A stretch of 27,798 nt of DNA from Chromera velia (taxonomy: Eukaryota; Sar; Chromeraceae), in NCBI GenBank assembly GCA_018398765.1, contig JAHBMJ010005754.1, positions 38,227 through 66,024 on the forward strand. The letters are read 5' to 3'. The translations under genes and the position numbers were made by a program. Positions 3,484 to 27,544 of the stretch are shown here, piece after piece. Within the stretch, counting starts at the first letter, position 1. The number at the start of each line of letters is the position of its first letter. The notes beneath the pieces are model-generated. The model was given only the letters and a program-made list of their open reading frames with translations, was not told the origin of the DNA and did no database searches.

Positions 3484-3489
3484 GCGCGA

Positions 3490-5217
3490 CTGTCTTTGGC
3501 TCCCCCTTGCAGGGAAAAGAGGGGATCAGGCGAGTCAGAGGGGTCAGAAGAGAAAGGGCGGGGGGATTCAGGAGGGGGAGGAGGGACAGGCGGCTCCACA
3601 AAAGGCTCAATCTGGTTATGATATTCCTATAGACCTGGCCAGCGCTGTTCTGCAAAACTTTTGACTGCAGCTGCCAACGGTGCAAGCTCTTCATCTAATA
3701 TGGGGGTAGATCGGTTAGAACAGAAGAGCGAAGGGTATTCAGAGAGGTTCTGGTGGGACAGAAGGGCGTCTTCTTGCTCTGGTTCGATTAGAGAAAGGCA
3801 GAGGGAAAAAGAGACAGATGCGTGGTCGGGGGAGGGAATGCCATCAAATTCAACCTTCTAATCAGCGATCCTCTCAACAACAGAGGGGTCAGCCAACAGA
3901 TAATCTATGACGGAGGTGGGCTTTGGCATCTGCAACTGTCTGGAGTAATGCGTACAGGCTTTGCCGGCCGCCGGTGCCGCGCTCGCGCCGCCGCGCCGCT
4001 CCACCCACCTTTCTTTTTAATCCGTTCAGGAAGACAAGGTTCGAGTCGCTGCAGAGCTGAATAAAATTCTTTCCGCAGGGTTTGACTTCTTGTGTGCATT
4101 CAGAGGACCATTCGAACAACGGTCTGTCTGCTTCAGTTTCGGGCCCCTCCCCCACAACACCACCATCTCCATTGCCTCCCCCTTCAAAAGGCTCCTCACT
4201 GCTACTAGACTTATTGGGTGGAAAGACGAGATCTGTACGGGACCAGAGAAGATTCTCGGGTAAAAGAGAGCCTGTATGCATGTTACAGTCCCCAACCACT
4301 ACTCTATCAAGTTAAACGTCCAGAGGGACCCCCCCATAAAGGTTACTCAAAAGGTCAGAGACCTTGCTGTCTCTGTGATCTGACCAGGAGCCAAGCAGGT
4401 AGACGCAAAAGATGTGAACCCTTTTAGAACCCCCCAAGAGAACTTTTGTTTCCACTATACTGGGGCCGACCAGCAAGATTTCAGGTTTCAATTCGCTCCA
4501 TCTTTCTTCTCAAACTAACATACAAACTCCCCCAGTTCTCAATTCCCTGTCATGCGCTGCCTTATGTGTGCCTAACTGCCGCCGGTACCATTCTCTGTGA
4601 CTAAAATTCTTTCCCTTCCACCCCTCGCACGAAACGTCCCTCATGACCTCTGACGTCTCTGTCAAGATCACAATATCGCAATTAATGTCATTCAGCCAAT
4701 GAGCGAGGGAACCATCCTCTTCCCTGGCCTTCAGGCTGGAGACATTCAGGGTAACAATCTTTACTCTCCCATCCCGGGCCCTAATTATGGCCAAAACCTT
4801 CCTTTCTGCCACCTTCTTTCTCTCTCTCCAAGAAGCTCTTCTCAACTCTTCCGAATGCTTCAAATTATCTGCCAACTCCCACAAATACGAAAAAGCAGGG
4901 CCCCAATCCACATAATCCTGCCTCTGCCCCTCTTCATTGATGCAGGTATCTAACATCTGCACCACCTCCCACTCCGTCTCCGAAGTAACCGAGCCTCCTG
5001 CTTCTCCCAGCTGATCCAGCTGAGACTCTTGGGATGCGACGCCTGCCATCTTGCTTTCTCTTCTTTTCTTCCCCCTTCCTTTTCTACGATTCTTCCTCTC
5101 TACCCCAGACAAAAGAGACGGATCCAAGTAAAAAAACTCTGGAGAGGCTTGGCTGCAGGGGGGGGGAGGCTTAGCAGCATATCTCCCTCTCCTTGTACCT
5201 TTCTCTCCGTTCCCCAA
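3490..5217 (-). pseudogene. LINE endonuclease (APE/EEP-type) region, broken
   Basis: The first 130 or so residues after 5217 are basic and charged, with no clear zinc knuckle. The EEP fold begins near 4770 with VKIVTLNVSSL (active-site Asn) and DIVILTETSEV (metal-binding Glu). It continues across a TGA at 4510 and a TAA at 4312 through VHIFCVYLLGS to VVVGDCNMHTG near 4300, which holds the catalytic Asp and Asn. A frameshift in GC-rich sequence near 3960-4000 moves the domain to another frame. There SVIDYLLADPS and, after a TAG at 3858, SPDHASVSFSL give the final Asp-His pair. The frame returns to the original one before 3483. The motif order matches LINE endonucleases that nick the target for target-primed reverse transcription. 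Confidence 0.88.
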
Positions 5218-5595
5218 TTTGCTACCTGAGGCCTGACTACTGTTTGACTGCTGCTCCCCCTTTCCACATTCTCTCTGCGGGGGGGATAGGAAGGAAAAAG
5301 CAGAACGAGAATAGATGGGCGGAGGAAGAGAGAGAGAAGAAGCTGAGAAGAAGAAAGAAGCGCCATGAGGAACACTGTAACTTGGTCCGCAGGCTGCTTA
5401 AACAATAGGCAGAGAGGACAGGGAGGAGCAAAAAGGAGGGGGTGCCACTGGAGGTGGAGTGAGGGGAAATGGAAGTGAGGCAGGTGGAGAAGGAGCAGGA
5501 AAGCAAAGTTGAGAGGCGGTGACTCGTCCGGGAGAGTGGAAGGGAAGACTGGACCGAAAAAGGAAGAAGGAGAAAGGAAGGGAAAAGCGTGCGAT

Positions 5596-10014: not shown

Positions 10015-10200
10015 TCACGTCGTCGTCCCCCCAGCACTCATGCTCGCCACCCGCTTCATCACTTTTTTGTGCAGCGACGTGATCGTCCTTGCCATCCCCT
10101 TTGCAGAGAGCGGCTTCTCGACGATCTCATCGAACATCGGGCAAACCTGCGGCCCCCATCTTTCTTCTATGTCGCGTCGGGCCTGCACGCCCCTCACACA

Positions 10201-10237
<37 letters not shown>

Positions 10238-13233
10238 GAAGAGAAATGCATTGTATTTCTTCATCCAGGGCACAAACACACACAGCAATTCTTCTTCACT
10301 CCGTCTGACAACCGCTTCCCTCCTTCCTTCCTGCCGGGAGGGATTCTGTACAGTCAAGACGAGCAACACAAGACCGGCACCTCGCCCGCCCAATGGATGG
10401 AAGGCCTTTCCACAGAGAGAGAGGGAATCACACAGAGAAACTAGAAACAGACAGAAAAAGAGACATACATACATACATACAGACAGACAGACAGGCAGAC
10501 AGACGGCAAACTCCCCACCCACCTGCGCACTGGCAAGGACCCTCCAGGACGTCGAGACATCGAATTTTGTTCCCTTTCCCTTTCCTCCCCCATCCCCTGC
10601 AGCTCCTCCCCCTCGAGATAAATCCCGGATCGCCCTCCCGACGTCCTCCCCGGACCCGTCGGGCATCTGCATCCATCCATCCATGTGTCGAGGGAAGGGA
10701 AGGGACATTGCTTGTATGACCGCGCTACGGAATGAATTGGAGTGGACTGACTGCATTGAATTGCAGTCAAGCAAGGCAGGCAGACAGGGCGGACACATTC
10801 TGCCAGTTGTAAAGCAATAAAAGGGGACTGTAAAAGAGCATCGGAGGGAGCAAAGCAGACAACTTCCTGCAAAGAGGCAGCAGCAGAGGGGGGCCCTACC
10901 AGAAAGGAACAATCGGAAGAGGGAGGCCTTACAAACAAACTTCATGGCCGGCAACTTCTTACAAAGAGAGGAGTAAAACCAACAGACCTCAAGGTCAGAC
11001 ACAATCAAGAAGCAACGAAGCTCCACTACTTCTTCATCCTTTCCTTCTTCCCCCCTGCCCCCACTCTTCTCTTTTTCCCTCTCCCCGTCCCCATCTGCCA
11101 AGATTTCGTGCAGCTTGTTGATGAGGCCCTGGCCCGAGTCAAACAGATGGAGCGAGTGCTTCGGAACTCCTAATCTCTCGAGAAGCATCCCGATCATCGA
11201 ACGCCCCACGAAATCGTCATCGGCTGCACTCACTCACTCACTCATTCACGCACTCACTCACTTGTCAAGAACCAACAGGGGACGTTCACACACACACACA
11301 CACACACACACGCACTGGGAAAGAGTGCGTGTGTGTGTGCGAGAGAGGAGGGAACGAGAAAGAGAGAGACATACAAAGAGCACTCGTGACCGGTTCTACT
11401 GTGCACTGAACTTGGTTTGCAAGAAGTATGAAAAAATTGTTGACCTAAAATGCCAAAAGATTGAGCGCACAACTTCAGAGCTTGCATTGTCTGACTAGAA
11501 GAATACACACATGGTCGCGGCTCCCCAGATCCTTTACCCCCCGTATTCCCCCCCCACATGAGTGTGCATGGGGGGGGAGGAAAAGTAGCAAGCTGAGATG
11601 CTTGAGAATGTTCAAAGGCCTCACATATATATATCTTTACCCAAACGTTCCCTCCCATGCATTTTATTTATCCTTCCAAACTAATGAATTAATTCATCGG
11701 CCCTCCCTCCCTCCCTCCCTCTTTCCGTCCACTGACCTCCCAGGCAGAATGTCTTCAGACGGAACTTTTGCGGACCACTCGCATTCCCCCTCTCTCTCTG
11801 TGCCCCCGAGGAGGAGGAAGCCGGTCCTGCTGAGGAAGAGGATGCAGAGCCGGAGGACTGGGAGGAGAGGGTGTTGGCAGTGAGGGTCTTCCCCGAGAAG
11901 AAAATTTTGAGAACATCCCCGAGGCCAAAAGAAGGATCGTCAGATGTGTCGCGTCTCAAGGACGGCTGGAGACTCAAAGGCAAAGGGAAACACCGTCCCC
12001 TGCTCTGTGCTGTTGGGGACTGGCTCTCTGGGACCGGAGGAGAGAAAGACGAAATGCGGCCGGAAGAGTAATGTTGCAAGGTGTTCGTGCCCCCCCCCTC
12101 TTTGCGTATGCCAAGGAACGGCACAGGCGATCTTTTGGGTGGGCAAGGAGAAAAAATAGAGGAATCTCTGGTCCGCCCTGTCACAGGGTTTGAAGAGGAA
12201 GACGAGGAAGAAGACAAAGAGGAAGACTGTGCTGCAGCGTTTTGCTGCGCGTCATCAGGAACACGGGGAGGGAAACTGCTCTCAGGGGGTATGGGGGCAT
12301 GTCTGTCGTTTGCATGCGCAGACGAAGGTGCGGCGAGTGCGTTGGTAGAGGAGGAGGAAGAGCGCCGAGAGACTTCAGAGGGATCGGAAGGATTCCGACC
12401 GTCTGCTGTCTCTTTTGTGACAGCAGGGGCAATCGTTGAAGGCGACTGATCGCGCTCGAGGGAGGGGTCATCCGCGCATGAATGCTCCTCTGCAGGGACC
12501 AAGGGAAGCTCTAAGATTGTCTGCTTCTGCTGCTGTTCCTGCTGCTGCGTTGGTGCAGAGTCAGCCTGAGGTTGTTCATCATCCGAAGACCCCCCTGCCT
12601 GTCTGTCTCTGTGCAAAATCGAGTCGTCAGAATTTGCCTGACCAACATCTGTCACGAGATTGCAACTCGACATCGACTGTGTGCTCTCTCGTTCACCCTC
12701 TGCCTTAGGAGAAAGAGAACGGCCGAGACCTGTCGATGAAGACATGGACTCGGTTGTTGTCAGATGGAGAGGAAGAGACGCATTCTCGTCCTCCTCTACA
12801 GGCGGAATCCCTGGACTCCCAGACTGCCTCCAACTCTGCTGGCCCCTTTGAGTGTCGGGATTCAAATCGGCCTCTTTCTTACACAACGACTTGGAAGCCG
12901 GTGCGTGTTCTTGGAATGACGAACTCCCATTTCCGTGTTCATTCTCCCCCTCTTTTGTTTGACGACACTCTGATTCCCCCGCAGTTTCTTCGCCTTCCTC
13001 GTCTTCGTCTAATTCTTCTGCACCCCCTGCATGTACACTGCCCTCCCCCCTCCTTTCTCCCTCTTCTACCAGCTTCTCGAGCTTCCTCCTTCTATTCCCC
13101 GATGGTCTTCTCTGGAGCTGCACCGGCCCGTGAGAAGTCGGGGGTGAGGGCGTCGAGGGGACCCTGGTGGCCCCTTGCTGCGGTTGAGTAGCAGACTGCA
13201 AAGCAAGGAAGGCAATGGCAGGGAATCAATGAA

Positions 13234-13272
<39 letters not shown>

Positions 13273-16200
13273 GAGGGCAGGAGAGGAGGTGCAACAATAC
13301 CAAACGAGAGGGATTCACGAGGGGGAGCAGCCCACAGATACACGCGGGCAGGAAGAGAGCATGAAGAGATACACGCGGGCAGGAAGAGAGCATGAAGAGA
13401 TACACGCGGGCAGGAAGAGAGCATGAAGAGATACAGGCAGGCAGGAAGAGAGCATGAAGAGATACACGCGGGCAGGAAGAGAGCATGAAGAGATACAGGC
13501 AGGCAGGAAGAGAGCATGGAAGAGACGGTGGTAAAGCGGCAAACCCAACAAGCTAACAGGAGGGAGAGCAGTATGTCGATGACACGCGTCACTCCCCATC
13601 TCCCGAACAGAAAATTGAGCGTGACGCAAAAAAAGTGCCAGTCTGAGTGTCGGCACAAACAAGCGAAAGAAAACAGGGGGGGAGAGGACTGCAAAGGGGG
13701 GGAGAGTCCAGAAGGGAAAAGAAATGAGAACAAAGGGGATGCACAAAAAGTGCGAAAGGACGTGAGAAAAGAGGTTTCTTTTCTGTTTTTTTTTCCACAC
13801 TGACAAATGGACAGATCATATGTTGGGTTTAGATAGATAAGAGGCAGACGGACAGAGAGAGAACTGACCAAGCCAAGAAGGTTCTCTTGTCCCTGGCTGT
13901 CACTCCTGGCACTTTGGAACAGTTGCCGCCTCACAAATGTCGTGGACGTGGAGGTCAAACGAACCGGGTCACTGGGTTGCGAATGCTGCTGCTGCTGTTG
14001 GGAGAAAGGGGGCACCCCAAGGGGTCCCGTCGCTCCAACGCTCCAGAGCTCCCCCCTCAACCCAGGAGCACCGAACGAAGCAGCATGGGTGGGCGTGGTG
14101 TGCTTCTTCTTGATGTTCTGTTGCAGTGCTCTGAGTGCTGCTGGATTTCCTTTCTCTCCTGAGGCAGCGTCGGTTCTCAGCCCGGTCGGGGGCGAGCGGA
14201 GAGAAACCAGAAGGTCACTTCCACTCTGCGACAAAGCCGGAGACGCTCTCTGCGGATTTGAAACTTTAGATCCTCCCTCCGCATCAAGGAGGCCACCCCA
14301 AAGGCTTTGCTGATGGGGGAGGCTCTGGTGAAGAGGCCCCCCCCCTCCAGGTTGCAGCGTGCGGGAGTGGAAGAAGGGACCCGTCGTTGGCGTCGCTGTG
14401 GAGTTGCCAGGGGTGTCTGAGAGACGCCTCGGGAAGACCACGGCCGACCTGCATGGGAGGGAGGGACAGAGGGAGTCGATCGGATCTGATGGGATCAGTC
14501 AGAGTTTTACTTATTCATTGGTGCTGTTTCGTAAGAAACAAAAGCAGACAAAGTGGGTATCCGAATGAACAGTTTCCCTGCACAAGCAGAAAGCGTTGCA
14601 ATGCGTTGGCCTTGAAAGTTTTTTTTCGACACTCATTTGCACCCTGCGTACTTGCTTCATGTCATCTCGTTCTTTTTTCTTTCTTTCTTTCTTTCTTTCG
14701 TTCTGCTTTACTTTGCCTGTGTGCTCTCCCTTTCATCCAGTCACTCGTCCACCTGTCCACTTGTCTTTCTCGACATTCTTCTTCTTCTCTTGCCTTGTCT
14801 TGTCTTGTCTTGTTTTGTCTTTTCCACTAAGTTCCTGCTGCTGAATGGAATGGCGGACCGTCCGTCTTCAGACAGGGGTCCAGAAACCGACGCCGCCTGG
14901 TCCAGAGCAAAATTGCAAGCCTGCACGCACGCACGCACGCAAAGCACTTGGTTTCCTTTACAGTGAGCGTATCCGGGGAGCACTCAGGCAGGTACAGAAA
15001 GCGAGAAAGAAAGAACAAAAAATCGGCAGGGGGGTGAGCTGAATTCACCGACGCAAAAAGACAAAACCACCCACACAAATGGATCGTCAATAAGGAGAAG
15101 AGGGTGTAGGCGAGCTCTTGATGATCTGCCGAGAGAGACCAGCCTGGCAGAAAACGACGAAGGGCTCGACACAATTTGAAGGACGAGAAATGGAAGACGA
15201 GCTCTCGCAGACTGAAACACTCATAGCCGGCAACAGAGAGAGACAGCCCGAGAGAACGAGAGAGAGAGAGAGAGGTTTATCAGACAGGGAAAACCAGACA
15301 CACAGACAGACAGACCTACCTCTGGAATCGCAGCGTCGAGGGGTACCCAGAACAAAAAGCTTGTTCCTGCATGAACAGATAGATGGGTCGAAGGAACCAA
15401 ATCGAAGGAAGTAAGAAAGCGACAAGCAAGAGAAAAAGAGTGCGCAACAGCCAGCAATGTTCCTCTTTTCTTCCCTCTGGGGGAGTGTCAGAGATCGTAC
15501 TTCGTACATCTTCTTTCATATGCGTATTTTCTTACTATACTCCAACAGACAGACAGACAGACAGTGAAACGTCTAAAAGAAGCGAGGTAGGCCCTGTGCC
15601 CCACAGGGAATATGTGGGACAGACACATTCAAAAAAAATAATTACGCAGTGAAAGAAAGCCATTAACCGGAGAAGGGCGAAAGGCGGCATGGCCTTTCTG
15701 ATCCTCACCCACCGAAATGTCCTCCTCACCTCACCTCCTTACAGAAAGAGGAACAAAGAGGGAGCCAAAGAAAAAAACGTCGCCTCATAACAGAAGAAAA
15801 TCTCCACGAGCATCCTTATGAAAGGGGAGGATAGTGTCCTTCCTCTGAGCTCTCTCTTCGAAGAAAAAAGGGGCAGGTAGAGGAACACCAAGAGCACTCG
15901 CATGCAGAAACCCATCAAGACACATGTGACCGGACAGGATGAAAAAAAAAAAGCATGTAACAATACACAAATACAAAGTCAAAGCCCCACGTTCCTCCTT
16001 TTTTGTCTTGCTTCCTGCTGACCTTTGTCCACCCCTTCTGATCTCAGCACACAGTCTCCTCCCATCGCTCTCGCAATGTCGCGTGCAAGCGAAAGACCTG
16101 CAATGCAATAGAAGGTACAGTCAGACATATTTGTATCACGCCCGGAATTTCTTTCTGCCCTTTTCTGTCCACGTTCTTTCTCTGTTTCCTCTGCTGAGTC

Positions 16201-19200
16201 GAACTGCGCGGCTTGCATTTCCTCTTTCTTTCTCTCTCTCTCTCTCTCTCGCTCTGTGTGTGTGCGTGTGTCTTTTCCCCTCTCTCCACAGACTCTCACG
16301 CGCAAACAGCAGCAGGACGGCGGACAGACAAGACACACGAATTCACCCTCGCGCCCCCACTGATCTCTCTACTAGCCAACCAACATTGGGTCTCTACGCC
16401 GATTTAAAGGAAGACGGGTAATCGACGGAACGTCTCAAAGAGGAAGGGGCAAGGAAATGCACAGTGTTTCCTGTACAAGAGCGGCCCTGTCCTCTTTGCT
16501 CCAAATTTGAATGAATTGAATTGAACAACCATATACCAGGCCCCTGCATCCACCCTGGTGTTCCGGATATGTCCCTGCATGTCGGTGAGGGAACAAAATT
16601 TGCATCGCCACTACAACTTCCGTGCAACTGACCGAGGCCGCTTCCCGCCATCGCTTCTTCGTTGGAGAGATGAGTGAAGTCACAGAAAAGACTTCCTAGT
16701 CTTTCAGGGGGAACACCCTTGCCCGTGTCTTTCACTTGGACAACCAAAATATGGGCCGCTTCTCTCTCCCTTTCCTTTTCCCCAGGCTGTTGTTTCTCTT
16801 TATCTCCGTCTCTTCCAGGATCTTTCACTGCTTTTTGATCCACGTCGTCACGGCCACCTTCCTTTTCTGTGGCTTCTCTCTCTCTGTCCTTAACCCCCCT
16901 GCCAATCAGACTACCTTTAGTCAAGCTTCGAGGAACTCTCCCACCACCCTGTGCTGCCTGCGAACTTTTGATGGAGACAGACGAACTTGAGCGTCCACTC
17001 ACACAGGTTCCCCTCTCTGCAGAGGGACCCCCAACTCCTCTGGCAGAAGAGGAAGAGGCGAGCGGCCTCCTCACGCCATTGCTCTTTCTGTCGTTTCCTG
17101 CTCCCACTCTTTCCCTTTGTTCATCCTCTCCCGCCTGCTGGCTTCTTCTTACAAGCCCCCGAGAAACGCCGCTCAAACCCCGCCCTCCCTCTAGGTCTCC
17201 TTCCTTATCGTCTTCCTCCTCCAGATTCAAATTCAAATTCTCGGAGGTATATTTCTTTTCCCACGTCCGCACAGGCGCGTAGCCACGTGAGGCAGCACCA
17301 GAAGCACTTTGTCCTCCACCCTCAGATAAGCCCCCAAGTCGCTCTTTTGCATACTCAAACGCATTCAAAGCAGACTGCCGAACAGCGGCCCCTGCCCGCG
17401 CTATCCTAGTGGACAGCGGTTGCCCCCCAGCTCTGCCAACCCCCCAGGTCAACCCGTCTCTCTCATGGCCTCCTGTCGCCTCTTTGTCCTTCCCCGTTCT
17501 CAAACGAGCTCTTTCAGATTCATGCTCACCCGCCGCCGATACAGCAGCTGCCACCTCCCTCTCCTCCTCCCCCCGGTGCACCGGTTCCCTCGCACTTCGC
17601 AAGAGGAAGGGGAGGGTCTGTCCTGACGGGAGCGGAGGCAGGGTCTCTCTCTGGCTTTGTCCTGTCGGCAGAGGGGGGGCTGCTGCTGCCGGAGCAGGAG
17701 CAGGGACATCGAGACCTTCAGGGAGCACGGTGCTGAAACCCCTCTCGGCACCGGGAGTCCTTAAGATGCCCCCGGCAACGTACAATGTCACCAATCTGCA
17801 CAAAGACAACCACACACACCCACAGAGTTAGAGTAAGAGCCAGGAAAAGAACGCAAAAGTGCCGAAGAGAAGACAACTAAAAGCGAGACCCCCCCCTCAT
17901 TCCGTGTTCCCTTCAGCGCCCCACCCCGAATCACAAAGGCTGAATAGAGGATTGGCAGTCCGACGGAGACCGTAAGGACATAAAATCGGATTCAGCACGA
18001 GAAGGACAAGTGTGCATACATGAAAGAAGCTGGCAGGTACAATCGGAGTTGGAAGGAAAATATGCATGGCGGGAGCTGCCTGCCTGCCGAGTCAACTGAC
18101 CCTCCCTCAGGCGTGTACTTGATCGCGTTGGAAAGTCCGTTGTTGACCATCTGGAGGAAACGAATCTGCATGTGCACACATACACACACACACACATACA
18201 TATACGTACTCAGATAGAGACATGTGTACACACAGATATACAGACACCGAGGGGCGAGTGTCTACATGAACATGAGCATGTTTCATTGAGGGGGTGAGGC
18301 GGTGAGCAAATGAGTTTGTCTCATACCTCCCGAAGAAATCAGAAGGTGAATGAATGATGACAGAATCCCGCCTTCCATTTTGCAGAAAAGAAAACAGAGA
18401 GCATTGTTCACACCTTTAAAGAAAGACAGACTGATCGATGATTCGAACTCACAAATTCATTCCCCGTATGCATTCTGATGTCTGTTTGCAAATTTGTCTG
18501 TTCGTCTGTATTCGTGCAACGTACAGAAAGGCGGCATGGAGAGTAACAGAGAGCTTCTGTACAGGGCAATTCTCCCCCCGCCTGTCTGACTGCCTGCCTG
18601 CCTACATTCCAACGTCAAAACAACAAACGCTTAATTCCCTTAAGAACGAATGCACCAAGCAACCGACTTACTTACCGTGTCGATTGAGAAGAGAACGTTC
18701 TGGAGTACTTCTGGTGACATCCACTCCGCAACTTCTCGGAGTTTCCATACAGACCCCCCCTCCGTCTCCGTGCCCTCCTCTCCAGCCTCAGCATGCTCCA
18801 GCGTGTCCCCAGTCGGCCTCGAAAAAGACGAGGAGGAAGACGAATCCCCCGGAACCCGAAAACCCCCACTGGAAGGAGAAGTCGGTGAGCCCCCTCTGTC
18901 CGATGATTCAGCAGCAGCAGCAGCAGCAGACGAGGAGTTGGATGACCACAGAAGAGGAGGACCTCCTCGCCGGTCTCCTGCCACCAGAAGCACACCAGCG
19001 TTCTCGATGAACTCCTCCACCTCCAGGGCTCCACACACCACAAAATTCATCCGGACTCTCCGCACACGGGCGCTTGCGGCATTCATCGCGAGGGCCATCC
19101 TGAAATAAATTCAGTCAAATGAGATCAGTTAGTAAGTCAGTCAGTCAGCGGCAAGGCAGAGGGGAAGAGAGAGGCAGGGAGGAGCGCCACTTGATCGTCC

Positions 19201-21777
19201 GAGGGGCCAGCAGACCAACGGGTTGATAGGGGTGAGCAAGATGAGAAATGAGGGAGTGATAGCCGTTTCTTTGATTAACAGTTTTCGGCTGCCACGCTCT
19301 CTGAACGATCACTCCAAGCTCACAAAAATAAATCGACATGCCGGATCACATAGGCGCTCATGCACAGGGCAGAAGAAAGAAAGAAAGCCCGGGCGGACGG
19401 ACGGACGGCCGGAAGCAACGAAGGAAGGAAGAAAACAGAAAAAGAAAAAGAGAAGACCGTCCCACAGAAAAAAGACAGACAGACTATACAGACAGACAGA
19501 CAGACCGAAGCGAATCGGCAACGTTGTCCCAGGATCTGAAAATGCGAATTCGCGGTAGCTCCTCCTCGTGGTTCCCCTCGTCCACCGCGTCTGTCAATCA
19601 GTCAGTCAGTGAGTCAATGAGTCATTCATTCAAATTGTGGGAAAGTGTGCACAACAAGAGAGTAAGAAATGCGCGCAGCAGGAGAGAAGGACATCAGGGT
19701 GGGTCCGTGCAAATTTTCTTGAGGCCAAAAAAGGGGGGAGGAAACACGGCAGAAGCGCAAAAATTCAAAAAGAAAAGAGCCAATCAACGAACGGAGTGAT
19801 GAACAGCAGGGAAAAGCGAAATAATGGAGGAAGTAAATGCAAGAGGCGGGCGCTAAAGAAAGGACAGAAAAACAACAGGAAGCAAGCACAAATGCATGCC
19901 AAACGCCAGGAGACAAGAGCGGAGAGGAAGAAGACCAGGAAAGCCAGCAGAGTCGAAGCAAGATTGTCATTCTTTCACTGAACTGACTTGCTTCCTGGCT
20001 TGAGAGGGCCATCCGAAGCCTGAAAGAACGAAGGCACAAAATCAAGAAGAAGTACACAAATGTCTCGGCCAGCCACACGATCGCACATGCAGGAAGGAAT
20101 GAAAAGACCATTTCGGAGAGGGAACATTGCAGTCATATCATGAAGAGAGGAGATGGAGGAGACTCACTTCCTGTCGTACGGAGTGTCTGCGAATGCACAG
20201 ACAGAAAAGACGATGATGGGTGCAACTTCTTGAGGGAAACTATGAATACATCCATCAGGAAAAGAAATGCAAAAGAACGACAGACGAACTCTTACAGCCT
20301 GTCCGCATGCGAGTGCGAAGACGGCTCTTTGCTAAGAGGGTCACAGAAGTTCCCCCCTCCCTCGGCTGCTCCCGCTTCTCCATTGCCGTCCGACTCGCAC
20401 CGCTATCTTCACTGTCTTGTTTAAAGTATCTTCCCTTGCGTGCCGACCGACTTCATACCATACCATGCCAGGCTGCTTGCTTGCTGACCTGATGACGTCC
20501 AGCATGTTGTTGGTCATCAGTTGCATGAACCTCGCACAGGACTCGACGGCGTCCACCTGCATCCATCCATTCATCAAGAGACGAGAGGGAGGAAAAGGAA
20601 GAAAGGGGGGAAGAGAAATACTCCAAGAGGGAAAGTCGAATTGTTGCAGAAGCCCCTTGAGACATCGGGACGTCTTTCGATTTCTTAGAACAGGTGACAG
20701 CTGCATCTACGGATGTCTGTCTGTCAGGCTCTGATCGCATCACGACCACAGTAGGCAGAAAGGTCTCTCTCAAGCAACAGTAGACAAAGTCAGCCGGACG
20801 GAGCCAGGCACCAGAAGATTTAGTTCTGTACAAAGTCTTCTCCTTTCTCCCAGGAAGGAAGCGCCACCCACCCACAGAGAGACCCCCCATCCCATCCCAT
20901 CCCATCCACCTGTTCTGCCGCCGCCCCGACACACGCCAGTGCGTCGTATCCCGCGGGTGTCCCTTGGGGGTTTTGTTGGGCACTGCCCGGAGGAACGGAC
21001 GAAATGCAGAGACCCTCCGCAGCGCTCTGCAGCAGGAGGAGTTAAGGGGGCAGGATAGACGGAACGTCCGAAGGCTAAAGGGGGAAGGTAAACTCTCTGC
21101 TTCTTTTGTCTGTGTCTGGAAGAGGAAACAAAGCACAACGAGCTACTGTTTCTGCACAATTCTTTCAGTCCATTAATGAACAACAATGTAGAGTTTACAT
21201 ATGGGAGACTGTTCTCCATCTCGCACCTGGAGAGAAGGGAACAGAAGAGAAGAAAAGGGACGCAGCGAAACATTCAGCCAACAGCTCCAGAGTCACCTGT
21301 GTGCATCACGACTCTTTCGAAAGATAACAGAGAGAAGAGACAGAGCGAGCGGACAGTCAGCTCCCCCCCCCACCTGCAGATGCTCTCGGATCAACGGAAC
21401 CCCGTTCAGTATTCCGTTCAGGGGGGTGCGCAGTTCGTGAGTCACCTGCAGTGCAAGGGCAGGGAGGCAAAGATGCACGGGGGCAGGTGACGCAAAAACG
21501 TGGAACCTCACAGAAACGGGAACGACATTGAAATTCTATTTGGCTGCACTGCTCATGGAAAAAAGACAAAAAGAAAGGAAAGGAACGCAACGGATCTGCA
21601 TGAAACGTCAGCACACACAGGCATCCCCCCCCCTCCCAACGATCCATTCTCTTTGTGCGAATCCAACCGGGCGTCCACCCACAAGACGACCATGGACGGT
21701 CAGACACCCTCAGAATCAAGATGGCCTATTCCAAAAATGAGACGCAGAGACACAGAGAGACACACAGACAGAGAGAC

Positions 21778-21817
<40 letters not shown>

Positions 21818-23134
21818 CGACCTTTCCGAATCCAACCTTCTGGCTCTGTAGCATCACTTGTAGAGCCCTGCTCTGCCGACGAATGACTCCCATCTGAAGT
21901 CAACCATACAGCCATATCAATCAACCCGTCAACGAACATGTGAGTTCACGAGTCTGGGAACACAAAAAACAGAGGAAGTGGAGGATGGATCAAAAAACTA
22001 GAGAAAAGGATAGATCTGTTCCCGCGAGAGAGACCAAATAATGATTCCGGACTGGCAGAAAGGTGAGCGAAGACAACGAAGGAAAATCAGAACAAGGACG
22101 TCAATACCGCGAACTGAAAAGACAGTCTCACGGAGGAGAAAAGCAGAAGGGGAAACAGGCGCCTCGATGATTCTTCATACAGCACAACGTTGTTTTCCCT
22201 TCCCTCTCCCAACCCAGGCAGGAACCTACCTGTGCATCCAGAATTCCAGATTCAGAAAGACCCAAAAGAACCAGCAGGATAATCTGCAAAAGAGAAGCAG
22301 AAGAGGGAAGCAAAATCGGTGATGCGGAACTCTTGCGAATAGCAGCTTTCCTCTTAATTGACGAGCGACCGGAATGAAAAATCCTTACAAACACGCAGAT
22401 CGAAGTGACGGACAGCCCACAGAAACCGCACAGATAGATCGCGCTCCCCTGAGGACAGACAAGACGAAGGATGACGCATCTGACGTGAAAATTGAGTACC
22501 CCTGAAAGAAAAAAAAAAAGCAGAAAAGCCTCCAAACCATAGTAGTCAGAACAAGACAGAAGAAGGCTTATCATCAAATTTCTCCACTACTTCTTCGGTA
22601 GTCCTTCCGCTAACTTCAGGCGCATCCGTGCGATGGTGATCCCACAAATCTCCTCTCTTGCTTGCGGTCACTATGACCGTCTCTCCTAGCCAGTTGAAAA
22701 ACGGGAGAGACAAGAGCCAACAACAAACGGCAAGGCCTTCCGAAGTTTCCCCCTCCATGCACCCTACCTGCACTGCAAAGGCGACGATCTGCAGCAGCTC
22801 CACCGAAATGGCCACAGAAAAACCTGTGGAGACCCATGGCTGGACGCCTGCGGGGTCGGCCTCTGAGTATTCATATCTGCAACCACGGGCAGATATATAC
22901 AGTGTACAAACAAGTTGCGTGTGTGAATGGATGATGTGGACAGAGACAGGAAGCAGACTTAGCGAAAAGGCAGAGAGACGACTGTCTGCACACCCCCACA
23001 TATGCGCTGCTGCGGCCAAATTTTTCCCTGCTGGTGCCTTCTGCCAAACAGATTTCTTCCGTCTCTTCACATTTCAATTATTTTCAACCGAACAAACAGA
23101 GAGGAACTCTCTCTCTCTCTCTCTCTCTGTCTCA

Positions 23135-23165
<31 letters not shown>

Positions 23166-25997
23166 TGTACAGAAGACAGCAAGACGGACCGGTGGCTCAA
23201 GATGGCCACGTAATGGATGCAACAAGTCGTGAGGGCAAAAAGAGTCGCTGCCAACAGGCGGACCAGCCACGTGTCTTGCCTCGTCAAATGGTACCTGCAA
23301 CCATTCATGCGCCATCAGCGTACGGAGGTCGGTTAGGGTCAATCGATGCACCATGCAACCGCAACCAACCAAGCAACCCATCATTCGGCCTTACAGACGC
23401 AAAGAAAGCTTAAGTCAACAAAAAGAATGGAGAGGGAAAGATGGAAGGGAAGAAAGAAGCAGGCGGATGTCCTGAGACGCGCTCTATTCCAAGGCAATCA
23501 GACACGGTCATTCACATCTCCCTTTTCAATCCCCATCCCCCCCCTGCATATCTAACCGACTGACAACACACCTCCATTTGGAAGAAAAGAAAAGTACGAG
23601 GAGACAGGCGGAGGAGGGGCCCAGAAGGAAACGAGAGGAAGAGGGAAAGAAAGAAAGAGACTCGTTCCATGATTGTACAGGGAGGGAGGAAGAACAGGTC
23701 TACCTCAAAGCGAATGCAAATGCAACGACCCCACACGGAACCACCAAGGCCAACGAGGCGACTGTGTATACTGTCGTGATCGTCCTGAAGGCTCCCTTGG
23801 TTGCTCCCACCGCGACGTAGTGCAGGACGACGACACAAAGGACAAGGAGGCCAGCTGCCCACATCAGACGCCTAGTCTCCAATCTGACAAGACACGCGCG
23901 CACATACGTACGTACACAGAGATGCATAGACAAGATGCATAGATACACACACACACACACACACACACGCACGCACGCGCACGCACGAACGCACGCAGCA
24001 TTTAGGAGCATACACAAATTTCTTACTCGACCCCTGTACGTGTCTTCCCGGCAATGGCCGAGACAGGGCAAGAGCGTTGAGAAAGAACATACCAGACAGA
24101 CAAACAGACAAACAGAGAGAAGCATTTCCGATGACATGCCCTCCCGCTCCAGACCGAAGAACCAACCCAACCTACCTATACATGGACCCACTGGGCCCTT
24201 CAGAAGACTCCTGCGTCCTTGCCCCTGAAGTAGCAGAGCCCCCCCTACGTTCCTGCAACTGTTGGCCTTCTGATGCTGCAGCTGCTGTCTGGGAGAAGGA
24301 AGAGGCCGCAGCCGACGTGGGGGAGGGAAACCGGAGTCCACTGTCCTCCGCCCCTGCACAGAGGCATGCATGAAGGCAGGAAGCCACACAGAGAGACACA
24401 CAGACGTCCCTTGAAAGTTAACTGAACATACACGAATTAAGGAAAGAAACACTCCGTGCTTTTGCATCCGCGATCGCCCCTTCTCAGGGTCGATACAGCG
24501 CCTTCCTGGCTTTCTGAGGGCCTGCTTCAGCCTGGTGCTTTCTGAGGGCCTGCCTCAGCCTGGTGCTTTTCCCTTTCCCCTTCCATTCTCTCTCTCACCT
24601 CACTCACTGTTTCAAAGTTTGCAAAAGTTTAAAGCTCTTTCCTGATTCTAAAGAAACACAGAAGAGTTTCATTTTGTCCCACACCCTCCCTCCCTCCCTC
24701 CCTTCCTTCCTTCCTTCCTTCCTTCCCTTCCTTCCTTCCTTCCTTCCTTCCTTCCCTTCCTTCCCTCCCTCCCTCTTTCCCTCCCTCTTTCCCTCCCTTC
24801 CTTTTCCTTCCCTCCCTCCCTCCCTCTTTCCCTCCCTTCCTTCCTTCCTTCCTTCCACCGACCTGGGACATCGCCCGTCTCCGTCAAGATTCGGATCTGC
24901 AACCGTGCAGCAGAACACGAAGAAACCAAGTCAGACAGCTATGCGGACAGCACAAGTAGAAAGTCCCCCTCTTGCACATTTTATTTGACAGTCTCCTCCC
25001 CTGACGACAGGAAGATGTGAGTGCAGGCCCCCCTCCGTTGGTCGTCTCCCAAGGTCACGGGAGGGACTCTCCGGACAGAACCCGCCGGCAGAAAAGAGAA
25101 GAGATGATCTAACTGGGTGGAAGATGACATGATTGAAACAAACGAACCCAATGTGAAAAAAAGAACAGAACAACCAAGAAAGAACTAGAACAAAATGGAG
25201 AGAGGCGGGAGGCTGACCTTGTTTGTGCACACCAGAGCCACACTCGCGAGTCCCAGTGCGAGGCAAAAGGAGGCCATGATCAGAAAGAGGTCGAACTCCA
25301 TCCCGAGCTTCGTGCTCACAGAGAACAGATCTCTCTTCGCACCCAACCCGCTGCAATTATTCATGCATCAGACGGGAGACGGGATTGAATACTCAAACAA
25401 AGAGGGGGCAGAACGGCGGACAGAAAAAGACACAATCGGACACATACAGCGCTACAGTTTTGCACCCGGTTCCCCCCCTCCCCCTCCTCAATCTCATCAG
25501 AAGCCCGACGGAGAGAGACGGCATGTAATCACCCTCCCTGCCAGTGTACGTCAGCAGACTGACCCGAGGTCCTCCATCATCTGCCCTCCTCCTCCTACTC
25601 CTACTCCGGCATGGGTGGCCAGCTTGAAGTAGTCGAAGGCAGGGAGCTGACGCACACCCAATTGCAGTGCCAGGATCCCGGCAAAGTGCATCGTCCAGAT
25701 ACCCACCGCAATGGACACACAAGCCCCCCAAAAGAGCAAGCCTCTCGCGTCTCGGTGGGCCTTCAGGACTGTCGAGGTTCCGCTTCCCGTCTGTCCAGAC
25801 ACGGCGGGCGTCTGGAGGAGAATCTTCGCAAACGAGAGACCAATCCACCAGCCTGCCAAAGCATAGAGGAAGGAAAGGACCACTGAAGGCCATGCGAAGG
25901 TGATCGAGAGTTGCTCTCCCACAGCGTACGGACATGGACTTTCTGAGTTCAAACATCCTTCAGAAAGAATCAAGCTGTGGACATGGACGTGCGGCAT
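10015..25997 (-). CDS. MHYT-domain transmembrane hybrid histidine kinase, 23-exon gene
   Basis: Phase-consistent joining gives exons 25997-25564, 25350-25218, 24896-24863, 24353-24176, 23883-23704, 23294-23163, 22876-22768, 22448-22389, 22283-22230, 21893-21822, 21445-21374, 20556-20489, 19099-18676, 18165-18101, 17795-16633, 16097-16023, 15366-15320, 14920-14859, 14448-13869, 13195-11737, 11223-10988, 10666-10523 and 10182-10015 (TGA). The sum is 5,949 nt, 1,982 residues, with no internal stop. Domain order: seven-helix MHYT sensor (about 1-438), HisKA (439-508), HATPase_c (about 509-1100), low-complexity linker (1101-1790), receiver (1791-1982). By family knowledge it should autophosphorylate H465 and pass phosphate to D1877, then to an HPt partner not present here. 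The start is the first ATG after an in-frame TGA near 26101, with A at -3. An upstream exon cannot be excluded. The exon 18 donor is the least certain junction (14859 or about 14784). Confidence 0.88.
10195..10237. repeat. (CA)n-(GA)n microsatellite in intron 22
   Basis: About twelve CA units pass directly into about nine GA units on the plus strand, 13 bases before the exon 23 acceptor in the minus reading. Confidence 0.9.
10462..10505. repeat. (ACAT)n-(ACAG)n microsatellite in intron 22
   Basis: Compound tetranucleotide repeat about 20 nt downstream of the exon 22 donor. On the minus strand it reads as TCTG units passing into TATG units. Confidence 0.85.
11287..11311. repeat. (CA)n microsatellite in intron 20
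   Basis: About twelve CA units. A (CACT)n tract also lies at about 11226-11260, touching the exon 21 acceptor. Confidence 0.9.
13235..13272. repeat. (GACA)n microsatellite in intron 19
   Basis: Nine or so CAGA/GACA units in intron 19, about 40 nt from the exon 20 acceptor. Confidence 0.9.
13338..13523. repeat. 31-bp minisatellite, six copies, in intron 19
   Basis: Units start at 13338, 13369, 13400, 13431, 13462 and 13493. Each contains GGCAGGAAGAGAGCATGAAG. Two variants exist: one with ACACGCGGGCAG and one with ACAGGCAGGCAG. Their order is A-A-A-B-A-B, so a two-unit A-B block was probably duplicated. The period is not a multiple of three and lies in an intron, so it is not protein coding. 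Confidence 0.93.
14664..14700. repeat. (TTTC)n microsatellite in intron 18
   Basis: Six TTTC units inside intron 18 of the kinase gene. Confidence 0.8.
15320..19099 (-). other. HATPase_c (GHKL) catalytic domain with large insertions, exons 13-17
   Basis: Exon 13 starts with the strand/helix leading into the ATPase fold, then has a Ser/Ala/Pro-rich insert of about 75 residues before MSPEVLQNVLFSID. Exon 14 gives the N box, QMVNNGLSNAIKYTPEGG (N659, N663). Exon 15 (1,163 nt) begins LVTLYV and then has about 325 residues rich in Pro, Arg, Ser, Gly and Glu. It resumes with ILVVQVKDTGKGVPPE (G1 box, D1028) and LFCDFTHLS (F box), and ends in GSGL. Exon 16 completes the G2 box, GLSLARDIARAMGG, and exon 17 ends the fold with TSFLFWVPLD. 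Every ATP-binding box is present. The insertion separates N663 from D1028 by 365 residues, against roughly 35-40 in ordinary family members. The exon phases agree at every junction. Confidence 0.92.
16215..16272. repeat. (TC)n-(TG)n microsatellite in intron 15
   Basis: A run of CT dinucleotides followed by TG dinucleotides in intron 15 of the kinase gene. Confidence 0.85.
20489..21893 (-). other. HisKA dimerisation and phospho-acceptor domain, exons 10-12
   Basis: Exon 10 (72 nt) encodes an amphipathic linker (MGVIRRQSRALQVMLQSQK) typical of the signalling helix before HisKA. Exon 11 (72 nt) encodes the H box, VTHELRTPLNGIL, with H465 the predicted autophosphorylation site. Exon 12 (68 nt) encodes the second helix of the hairpin (ARFMQLMTNNMLDVIR). 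Exons 10 and 11 begin and end in phase 0. Acceptors are CTTCAG, CTGCAG and ATGCAG. The HisKA is slightly shorter than usual between its two helices (about 45 residues from His to the end of LDVIR), but all hallmark residues are present. Confidence 0.93.
21766..21816. repeat. (GACA)n microsatellite at exon 10 donor
   Basis: About nine GACA/CAGA units. On the coding strand the repeat starts only a few bases after the donor GTCGGT of exon 10 and reads as GTCT units. Confidence 0.9.
23107..23162. repeat. (TC)n-(CA)n microsatellite at exon 6 donor
   Basis: About ten CT units, then GTCTCAA, then about fourteen CA units. On the coding strand the exon 6 donor is the first GT of the resulting GTGTGT run. 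Confidence 0.85.
23945..23968. repeat. (CA)n microsatellite in intron 4
   Basis: About twelve CA units, followed by CGCA-type tetranucleotide repeats to about 23998. Confidence 0.9.
24510..24565. repeat. 28-bp tandem duplication in intron 3
   Basis: Units 24510-24537 and 24538-24565 are identical except for one T/C difference (GCCTGCTTCAG against GCCTGCCTCAG). It lies in intron 3 of the kinase gene. Confidence 0.9.
24683..24857. repeat. Long (CCTT)n/(CCCT)n pyrimidine tract in intron 3
   Basis: About 175 bases of nearly pure C/T on the plus strand. On the coding strand it is a purine tract of GGAA and GGGA units that starts about 6 bases after the exon 3 donor GTCGGT. Confidence 0.9.
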
Positions 25998-26617: not shown

Positions 26618-27544
26618 ATGTCCGTCTCCTCAAATTCCCTCAGTTGTCAGATGGCCGTACCTCCCTCTCGGTCTGAGCCTTCTGCCGGTCTGGAAGTTGT
26701 GACTGTCCGTCTGCCGGCGTCCCTTTCTGTGTTTAAAATTGTTGGAGGGAAGGAAACCGTGGAAGAGTATCTCGCAGCCGTGCACAAAGCACGGGGAGGA
26801 TCGGAGACGGCGAAAGAACCCGACTGGTCCGCACTGTACCTGCAGTTTGATGAAGCGCACGCACTCGGCACTTTGCCCTATCGATGGGACCAGGGCTTTA
26901 GTTTGGCGTCTCTGTGGAAGCTTACTCTTAAAGGGAAAGAAGAAAGTCCGGCCCCAGGTGCGGCCGCTTCTGCTGGTGGGGAAGGAAAAGGAACTGGTGG
27001 ACAGGTAGAGTCAACGGTCGGATTACAGGCAGTGATAGTGAAGGGGGGCTGGATGGCTGGTGGTTCTGTAGCAGGAGAAGAGAAGGCAGACATCCTGAAG
27101 AAGAGTCTGGAACTCAATGTTGAGCTGCCATTAATGGCGCAGTTAGGGTCAAGGGGCATGGTTCTGTGTTGTAAGGAGACAGGGGGCCAGTGGGAGATGG
27201 CAGTGCCGCACTCGTGTGTGTCACGGTTTATGTCCAATACTGTTCAAAGAAGAGAGAAGGAGTTTGAGGAAAAGTGCGGAATGACACGACGCTGGAGATG
27301 GATTGAGGAGGAAATGTTGAAAGAGAATCCTGCAGAGGCAGATCGGCCTGAAGTTCAAGCAGATGGGGGTGGCGGGGTGCTCTCCAGCCCCCCTCCCACA
27401 TGTACAGGGGACTGTGAGTGGAGGCGGTGGACGGATGAGGACGATGCCGCTGTGCAGGCAGACGTGGCGGCGCCCAAATTTATTCGAGAGGCCCATCTGG
27501 GAGCTGATGGAGTTGAATGTGTTATCGAGAATGGGACGAAGTGA
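26618..27544 (+). CDS. Hypothetical protein, 308 residues, single open exon
   Basis: I do not recognise this protein. It is an uninterrupted frame of mixed, non-repetitive composition, unlike the repeat-driven ORFs nearby, which supports coding. The first part (about 25-105) reads as a compact fold (GLEVVTVRLPASLSVFKIVG, then DWSALYLQFDEAHALGTLPY and WDQGFSLASLWKLTLKG). A Gly/Ala/Glu-rich linker follows at about 107-130. A second conserved-looking part (about 134-240) has GLQAVIVKGGWMAG and WEMAVPHSCVSRFM, then a charged helix. The C-terminal third is acidic. There is no signal peptide or membrane helix. Two in-frame ATGs (26618 and 26651) are possible starts. The second follows TTGTCAG, which could also be a splice acceptor. 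It is divergent from the kinase gene across a 620-bp gap, so the two may share regulation. Confidence 0.7.
   Translation: MSVSSNSLSCQMAVPPSRSEPSAGLEVVTVRLPASLSVFKIVGGKETVEEYLAAVHKARGGSETAKEPDWSALYLQFDEAHALGTLPYRWDQGFSLASLWKLTLKGKEESPAPGAAASAGGEGKGTGGQVESTVGLQAVIVKGGWMAGGSVAGEEKADILKKSLELNVELPLMAQLGSRGMVLCCKETGGQWEMAVPHSCVSRFMSNTVQRREKEFEEKCGMTRRWRWIEEEMLKENPAEADRPEVQADGGGGVLSSPPPTCTGDCEWRRWTDEDDAAVQADVAAPKFIREAHLGADGVECVIENGTK

Follow-up and report, generated by a model that had tools for sequence, protein, structure and literature searches.

A probable membrane-bound hybrid histidine kinase with an MHYT sensor in the nuclear genome of the alga Chromera velia

An intron-rich gene on the minus strand

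We analysed a window of 27,798 nucleotides from Chromera velia (contig JAHBMJ010005754.1, positions 38,227 to 66,024). On its minus strand, from a start codon at position 25997 to a stop at 10015, the predicted exon chain forms a single intron-rich gene with the domain order MHYT, HisKA, HATPase_c and receiver. Two models of this gene are open, consistent in phase and closed by one terminal stop each. The longer has 25 exons (6,018 nt, 2,005 aa). The shorter (23 exons, 5,904 nt, 1,967 aa) leaves out exons 8 (22389..22448, 60 nt) and 9 (22230..22283, 54 nt), which are doubtful and can be skipped without loss of frame. Exon 7 is then joined in frame to exon 10 by GT-AG sites across 874 nt, a gap similar in size to the other long introns of the gene (817 and 830 nt). 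Depending on these two exons there are 22 to 24 introns, and in the longer model 23 are GT-AG and one is GC-AG. At gathering scores, Rfam has no match in the whole window.

The 1,982-residue chain of 5,949 nt given in the earlier note was not reproduced, and the divisibility of a length by three is, taken alone, weak evidence that a chain is right. One chain of that length, the first exon set minus exon 14, contains 22 stop codons and was rejected. The least secure junction of our models is that between exons 20 and 21: boundaries at 15320/14448 lose the frame, and we used 15316/14485 because the frame must be kept.

Sensor, kinase core and receiver

Exon 1 (25564..25997) encodes an N-terminal C...CPYAVGEQL segment, the predicted helix TM1, and TM2 with the first MHYT motif, TMHF. 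A loop and TM3 follow in exon 2 (25218..25350), more of the loop after TM3 in exon 3 (24863..24896), and in exon 4 (24176..24353) an insert of the TM3-TM4 loop that the solo MHYTs discussed below lack. TM4 with the second motif, LHYV, and TM5 lie in exon 5 (23704..23883), TM6 with the third motif, IHYV, in exon 6 (23190..23294), and TM7 in exon 7 (22768..22876). Judged by its sequence, the region of exons 1 to 7 is a full MHYT sensor. With Pfam MHYT (PF03707, cut-off 21) the exon-1 frame alone scores 28.7 bits and the whole 2,005-aa model 20.6 bits, just below the cut-off, and hhalign aligns the sensor to a wider MHYT profile with a probability of 99.3% over 236 columns. Taken by itself, the sensor downstream of exon 1 has an hhalign score of 63.2; the highest among 200 shuffles is 23.9. 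Scored from exon 2 on with a profile built from nine other MHYTs, the sensor reaches 42.1 bits, a value to be compared with 7.3 for the best of 500 shuffles; its best single domain scores 39.7 bits, compared with 9.9 for the best shuffle's. In the alignment with these nine proteins all three motif histidines are kept, as the earlier note had described; the three aromatic residues are kept too. Only motif 1 retains its methionine, motifs 2 and 3 reading LHY and IHY, and the Met ligands proposed for MHYT motifs appear to be mostly absent. The sensor is spread over seven exons; the nine first reported would hold only if exons 8 and 9 are real. These two exons each encode part of a would-be eighth hydrophobic stretch, where hydropathy shows seven without them, and eight do not fit an outside N-terminus combined with an inside kinase.

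The linker helix leading to HisKA is encoded by exon 10 (21837..21893), which opens with ATG. Exon 11 (21374..21445) carries the H-box VTHELRTPLNGI, its histidine present (HELRTPL), and exon 12 (20489..20556) helix 2 of HisKA. Two micro-exons, 13 (20168..20186, 19 nt) and 14 (19992..20019, 28 nt, with the GC donor gcaagt), precede the linker to the ATPase in exon 15 (19506..19590). The ATPase region starts in exon 16 (18676..19099) together with a Ser/Gly-rich insert. It continues with the N-box NNGLSNAIKYT in exon 17 (18101..18165), an insert of about 330 aa and the G1 box DTGKG in exon 18 (16633..17795), and the G2 box GSGLGLSLA, which spans exons 18 and 19 and is completed in the latter (16023..16097); the domain ends in exon 20 (15316..15366). 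Despite the long interruptions the identity of the ATPase domain is clear: on the whole model Pfam HATPase_c scores 64.1 bits (E 2e-17, cut-off 26.4), and 71.6 bits once the inserts are cut out. HisKA scores 23.7 bits (E 5e-5), just below its cut-off of 26.9. Once the inserts are removed, 49 distinct solved sequences match the kinase region at E<=0.01, headed by a histidine kinase (E 5.3e-13). No PAS domain turns up in the whole model when Pfam matches with E values of up to 10 are allowed.

A linker of about 690 residues, in exons 21 (13869..14485) and 22 (11737..13195), leads to the receiver, whose strand beta-1 (FCLG) is likely at the end of exon 22. Exon 23 (10988..11223) holds the acidic pocket DDD and runs through beta-3 to SDLE, exon 24 (10523..10666) runs from MPDGSG to beta-4, assigned by eye to LASAQ, and exon 25 (10015..10182) contains the receiver end with the EKPLS lysine, followed by the stop codon. 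DDD, SDLEMPDG with the phospho-acceptor Asp, and EKPLS with the Lys are collinear and in the order expected of a receiver; the Ser of LASAQ in exon 24 was placed by eye as its conserved Ser/Thr. The profile scores are low. Response_reg reaches 13 bits (12.1 to 13.5 among model variants) against a cut-off of 30.2, NCBIfam has no match, and the seven rows among solved structures at E up to 10 (best E 0.21) include no receiver. With HMMER, the best single domain scores 5.6 bits, against 5.4 for the best shuffle's, and the full receiver model 3.4 bits, a score exceeded by six of 500 shuffles. Compared with a profile of this genome's own receivers, the region has an hhalign score of 41.2 (probability 89.9%), the top two of 200 shuffles scoring 31.5 and 20.9. 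Because of the low Pfam score and the absent NCBIfam match, the identification rests on the motifs and on the own-genome profile. An additional exon within the last intron, proposed for beta-4, brought no gain (Response_reg 12.1 against 13 bits) and was rejected. The earlier note was largely right: the four-domain order stands on an open, in-phase chain, and the Pfam search it proposed recovers the ATPase domain and, on the exon-1 frame, MHYT. Its claims for the receiver and for the precise exon chain went too far.

Proposed working and origin of the fusion

A Pfam MHYT scan of the same genome revealed four further loci (C770, C1603, C2729 and C3894). The window gene is not in its output, although a protein search did recover it; hence the scan overlooks divergent copies. 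Unlike the window gene, these four have no kinase or receiver in the 7.5 to 8.4 kb downstream of each (tblastn, 11 queries), and we call them solo MHYTs. They resemble the window sensor in their MHYT helices and CPYxx(G/K)EEL N-terminus, with an overall identity of 24-27% for the three that were aligned; C770 and C1603 reach 40-45% over residues 22-116. Against solved structures at E up to 1, a solo MHYT gave no matches. The genome also has 53 HisKA matches. In the genome paper on Chromera and Vitrella, the terms "histidine", "histidine kinase", "two-component", "MHYT" and "response regulator" do not occur in the main text; the genome is nonetheless rich in histidine kinases. No Hpt partner was matched in an exon-wise scan of this genome, which a split Hpt would escape and which was positive in 8 of 14 control genomes. 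With its introns, the other MHYT loci and the HisKA matches, the view that this is a nuclear gene and not bacterial contamination is well supported. We consider it probable that the product of this single nuclear Chromera velia gene is a hybrid histidine kinase of about 1,970-2,005 residues that is bound to a membrane, has an MHYT sensor and arose by a fusion made in this lineage.

Such a protein could work as follows. A seven-helix sensor with its N-terminus outside would be coupled directly to the dimerisation helix of HisKA. The histidines of the three motifs, close to the outer face of the membrane, may hold copper and a diatomic gas (O2, NO or CO), or may respond to redox state, and the ligand would move the helices. 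The kinase would then phosphorylate the HELRTP histidine, from which the phosphate could pass to the receiver Asp of SDLEMPDG and then enter a downstream relay. Sensing of copper or gas is suggested by analogy with characterised MHYT proteins. The fold could instead have been retained as a membrane anchor without metal binding, constitutive or serving another ligand, as the two motifs without Met and a very long sensor branch (3.02) might indicate. We regard this as unlikely, though it deserves consideration: all three histidines and all three aromatic residues are preserved despite the long branch, and motif 3 of the solo MHYTs (VHY) likewise has no Met, so the loss is partly a family feature.

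The phylogenies that the earlier note had suggested for dating the fusion were informative for MHYT only. The free tree groups the window sensor with three solo MHYTs (96/94), against 11 bacterial rows, and these four proteins have in common a C...CPYxx(G/K)E(E/Q)L segment absent from six aligned bacterial proteins. The kinase-core tree (17 rows) is saturated and uninformative: three of its branches measure close to 10 changes per column, and none is starred. Because of the grouping and the shared N-terminus, the solo MHYT family of the alga itself is the likely source of the sensor, which would have been joined to a kinase within the lineage. Alternatively, a whole bacterial MHYT hybrid kinase could have been acquired by horizontal transfer and gained its introns later. 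Azospirillum ramasamyi has such a protein (MHYT-PAS-HisKA-HATPase_c-Response_reg), the AU test does not reject a grouping of the window sensor with two bacterial MHYT kinases (p-AU 0.121), and of all rows in the tree set a bacterial one, Shinella, comes closest to the sensor by raw identity (24% over 236 columns). Set against the tree, the bacterial rows without the CPY segment, a model with no PAS match, and H-boxes of HDLRQPL and HDFNNLL in the two bacterial kinases where the window has HELRTPL, this origin seems improbable. Searches of prokaryote genome and viral collections with the MHYT alignment gave 20 and 15 pattern matches, respectively, none confirmed.

It is more doubtful still that the fusion is an illusion created by two neighbouring genes, a solo MHYT (exons 1-7) and a kinase gene starting from or near the ATG of exon 10. 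Solo MHYTs do exist in this genome, and the doubtful exons 8 and 9 sit exactly at the border between sensor and kinase. But the in-frame GT-AG junction of exons 7 and 10 spans a gap about as long as the other long introns of this gene, the joined helix resembles, by eye, the TM7-to-tail stretch of the solos, and the model requires no stop at any point. A pseudogene or decaying kinase, as the very long inserts and weak receiver score might suggest, is very improbable given 6,018 nt open to one terminal stop, with every one of the H, N, G1, G2, DD, D and K residues in place.

Comparison with known MHYT proteins

Bacteria and a few fungi are already known to have MHYT-kinase fusions; what is new here is the unexpected host, a photosynthetic alveolate that counts the malaria parasites among its relatives. 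More tentatively, and with somewhat less than even confidence, we suggest that this close free-living relative of the Apicomplexa fused a resident eukaryotic MHYT receptor to a kinase from its unusually large histidine-kinase repertoire, giving it a gas or copper receptor kinase of its own. This would be the first report of an MHYT kinase from beyond the bacteria and fungi, and the design would have originated independently. If true, it would offer a testable route by which alveolates could sense O2, NO, CO or copper, and would point to more than one origin of the sensor-kinase design.

The closest bacterial counterpart in architecture, WP_111070205.1 of Azospirillum ramasamyi (locus L071), has its MHYT sensor, HisKA, HATPase_c and receiver in the same order as the window gene. 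It differs in that a PAS domain separates its sensor from its kinase, in its uninterrupted frame of 779 aa, in having no CPY N-terminus, and in its H-box. Among eukaryotes, the earlier statement that MHYT is known mainly from bacteria is fair, but fungal cases precede ours. As far as the available text of PMC4007546 describes them, the Taphrina MHYT histidine kinases are eukaryotic like the window gene, but fungal, with a single copy in each species studied and, according to its authors, a possibly horizontal origin; very few copies are given for Pezizomycotina. An "MHYT domain signaling protein" of Aspergillus fumigatus is listed in the portion available of PMC3576715.

For function, the closest comparison is CoxC of Afipia carboxidovorans (MHYT-LytTR; the strain OM4 counterpart is in L072), with which the earlier suggestion of metal, redox or gas sensing appears reasonable. 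The available text of PMC11347149 reports that its MHYT domain senses CO and requires copper, presents it (2024) as the first MHYT domain with gas sensing proven by experiment, and cites NO-linked roles of MucR and NbdA. Its sensor has three His motifs, as in the window gene. These motifs retain Met in CoxC (MHF, MHY, MHY) and only in motif 1 in the window gene, and where the output of CoxC is a LytTR DNA-binding domain, that of the window gene is a kinase and receiver.

Gene model and domain order

The window carries what is predicted to be a single nuclear gene, reading on the minus strand from an ATG at 25997 to a stop at 10015. In its longest form it has 25 exons (6,018 nt, 2,005 aa) with a single terminal stop, and its introns are GT-AG in 23 cases and GC-AG in one, the GC donor lying after exon 14. 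Exons 8 and 9 (60 and 54 nt), each skippable in frame, are doubtful: the 874 nt around them contain 13 candidates for in-frame micro-exons in a simple count that includes exons of their kind (0 to 16 in other introns), the aligned solo MHYT genes of this genome have no matching stretch, and their inclusion brings an eighth hydrophobic stretch. Without them the chain keeps one stop (5,904 nt, 1,967 aa), and the join of TM7 to the HisKA linker resembles the solos, as judged by eye. We prefer this 23-exon chain over the 6,018-nt form. The 5,949-nt chain of the earlier note could not be reproduced; one chain of that length carries 22 stops.

The central claim of that note, a nuclear MHYT hybrid kinase gene, is supported with either chain, and the analysis establishes the gene, its domain order and its conserved residues. 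The profile search that it suggested gave a mixed answer on the 2,005-aa model: HATPase_c scores above the Pfam cut-off (64.1 bits), and HisKA (23.7 bits, cut-off 26.9), MHYT (20.6, just below 21) and the receiver (13, Response_reg cut-off 30.2) fall below. For MHYT, the exon-1 frame alone reaches 28.7 bits. Against a wider MHYT profile, built from three algal solos and six bacterial proteins with the window left out, the sensor scores 75.0 bits and its part from exon 2 on 42.1 (none of 500 shuffles above 7.3); hhalign gives 99.3% across 236 columns. All three motif histidines are present (TMHF, LHYV, IHYV), the motif Met in one motif only. With seven helices, the loop charges, judged by eye, would place the N terminus of the sensor outside and the kinase inside.

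An NCBIfam search with the receiver gave zero matches. With a home-made profile of 56 receiver stretches from this genome, counting overlapping loci, HMMER gave 10.6 bits for the final 203 residues (500 shuffles reached at most 6.5), but the best single domain scored 5.6, against 5.4 for a shuffle, and the whole model only 3.4 bits; hhalign gave 41.2, the top two of 200 shuffles 31.5 and 20.9. The alignment is collinear across DDD, SDLEMPDG and EKPLS, and globally it puts strand beta-1 at the end of exon 22, in agreement with the splice after that exon. By our own placement by eye, the Ser of LASAQ may be the conserved receiver Ser/Thr. Long Ser/Gly/Glu-rich inserts lie within the ATPase domain (16633-19099, minus strand) and between kinase and receiver (11737-14485, minus strand); with the TM3-TM4 loop they make up an estimated more than half of the protein.

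Relatives and origin of the sensor

We searched the whole genome (177.8 Mb, 4,040 contigs; the window at C3826:38227-66024). The Pfam MHYT scan matched five places on four contigs, none on the window's contig, and so missed the window's own sensor; as far as read, these matches are solo MHYT genes. Used as a protein query (E up to 10), the window sensor matched only its own contig and those four. We ran tblastn (E up to 0.1) over the 7.5-8.4 kb downstream of each solo, using the window protein together with kinases and receivers, 11 queries in all. This gave no kinase or receiver, while several of the queries recovered a control kinase locus. Hence the MHYT-kinase fusion looks single-copy in this genome. 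One solo gene (C1603, about 1468-1470) has an in-frame stop where a close relative in C770 reads on, which could reflect a pseudogene, a polymorphism or an assembly error.

Was the fusion made within this lineage? We find this likely from sequence comparison. Ahead of TM1, the window and three aligned solos have in common the motif C...CPYxx(G/K)E(E/Q)L, absent from the six aligned bacterial MHYTs. The MHYT half of the phylogeny proposed in the earlier note joins the window and three solos in one group (96/94; 15 rows, columns filled in >=60% of rows, the CPY segment thereby left out); the kinase-core tree added nothing on sensor origin. Against the grouping count the long window branch (3.02), its highest raw identity in the tree set being to the bacterial Shinella (24%), and a tree forcing the window with two bacterial MHYT kinases, which was not rejected (p-AU 0.121).

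Genomic setting

The genome has a very large histidine-kinase repertoire across many contigs (loci L011-L065): 53 HisKA matches (E<=0.01), at least 50 receiver matches from the 50 candidates scored among 139, and 94 kinase-core matches (E<=1), of which 83 lie off the window's contig. Many of these kinases have an unusual H-box like LSYIMHEMRNPLSGASLL, and by this shared box look like a lineage-specific family. Apicomplexa are usually described as having no kinases of this kind. An exon-wise scan for Hpt (PF01627), which split or divergent forms could escape, gave 0 matches (8 of 14 control genomes match). Alveolin (IMCp; 11) and light-harvesting (58) matches, each family with a match in one of the 14 prokaryotic controls too, indicate a photosynthetic alveolate.

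Elsewhere in the window, a LINE-like element remnant (1408-5397, minus strand) includes reverse-transcriptase pieces at 2383-2862 (minus; Pfam 29.4 bits, cut-off 29.6) and, weakly, 2074-2382 (minus; Pfam); we read the upstream frames, by eye and without a Pfam match, as a putative endonuclease part. An ATG-initiated open frame of 308 aa with zero Pfam matches (26618-27544, plus strand) is divergent from the kinase gene across about 620 bases.

Proposed sensing mode and known MHYT kinases

By analogy with CoxC and histidine kinases, a ligand would bind at the three motif histidines and shift the helices, leading to autophosphorylation at HELRTP, from which the phosphate would pass on to the receiver Asp. 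We consider the whole reading quite probable: a nuclear gene for an MHYT hybrid kinase, apparently present once, in which the fusion is likely home-grown and sensing works in this way.

We came across no MHYT kinase from an alga or alveolate in the literature searched, which covers few subscription papers. The MHYT-LytTR regulator CoxC is a CO sensor that works with copper (PMC11347149). In keeping with that role, four alphaproteobacterial plasmids (L070, L072, L073, L083) carry MHYT genes immediately upstream of genes for CO dehydrogenase or the xanthine-dehydrogenase family. A Taphrina study describes a single MHYT-domain histidine kinase in every species studied (PMC4007546). Among bacterial proteins, one of Bosea is an MHYT-PAS-kinase, and one of Azospirillum ramasamyi has the domain order of the window kinase, plus PAS. 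The design is thus already known, and what stands out here is the host organism.
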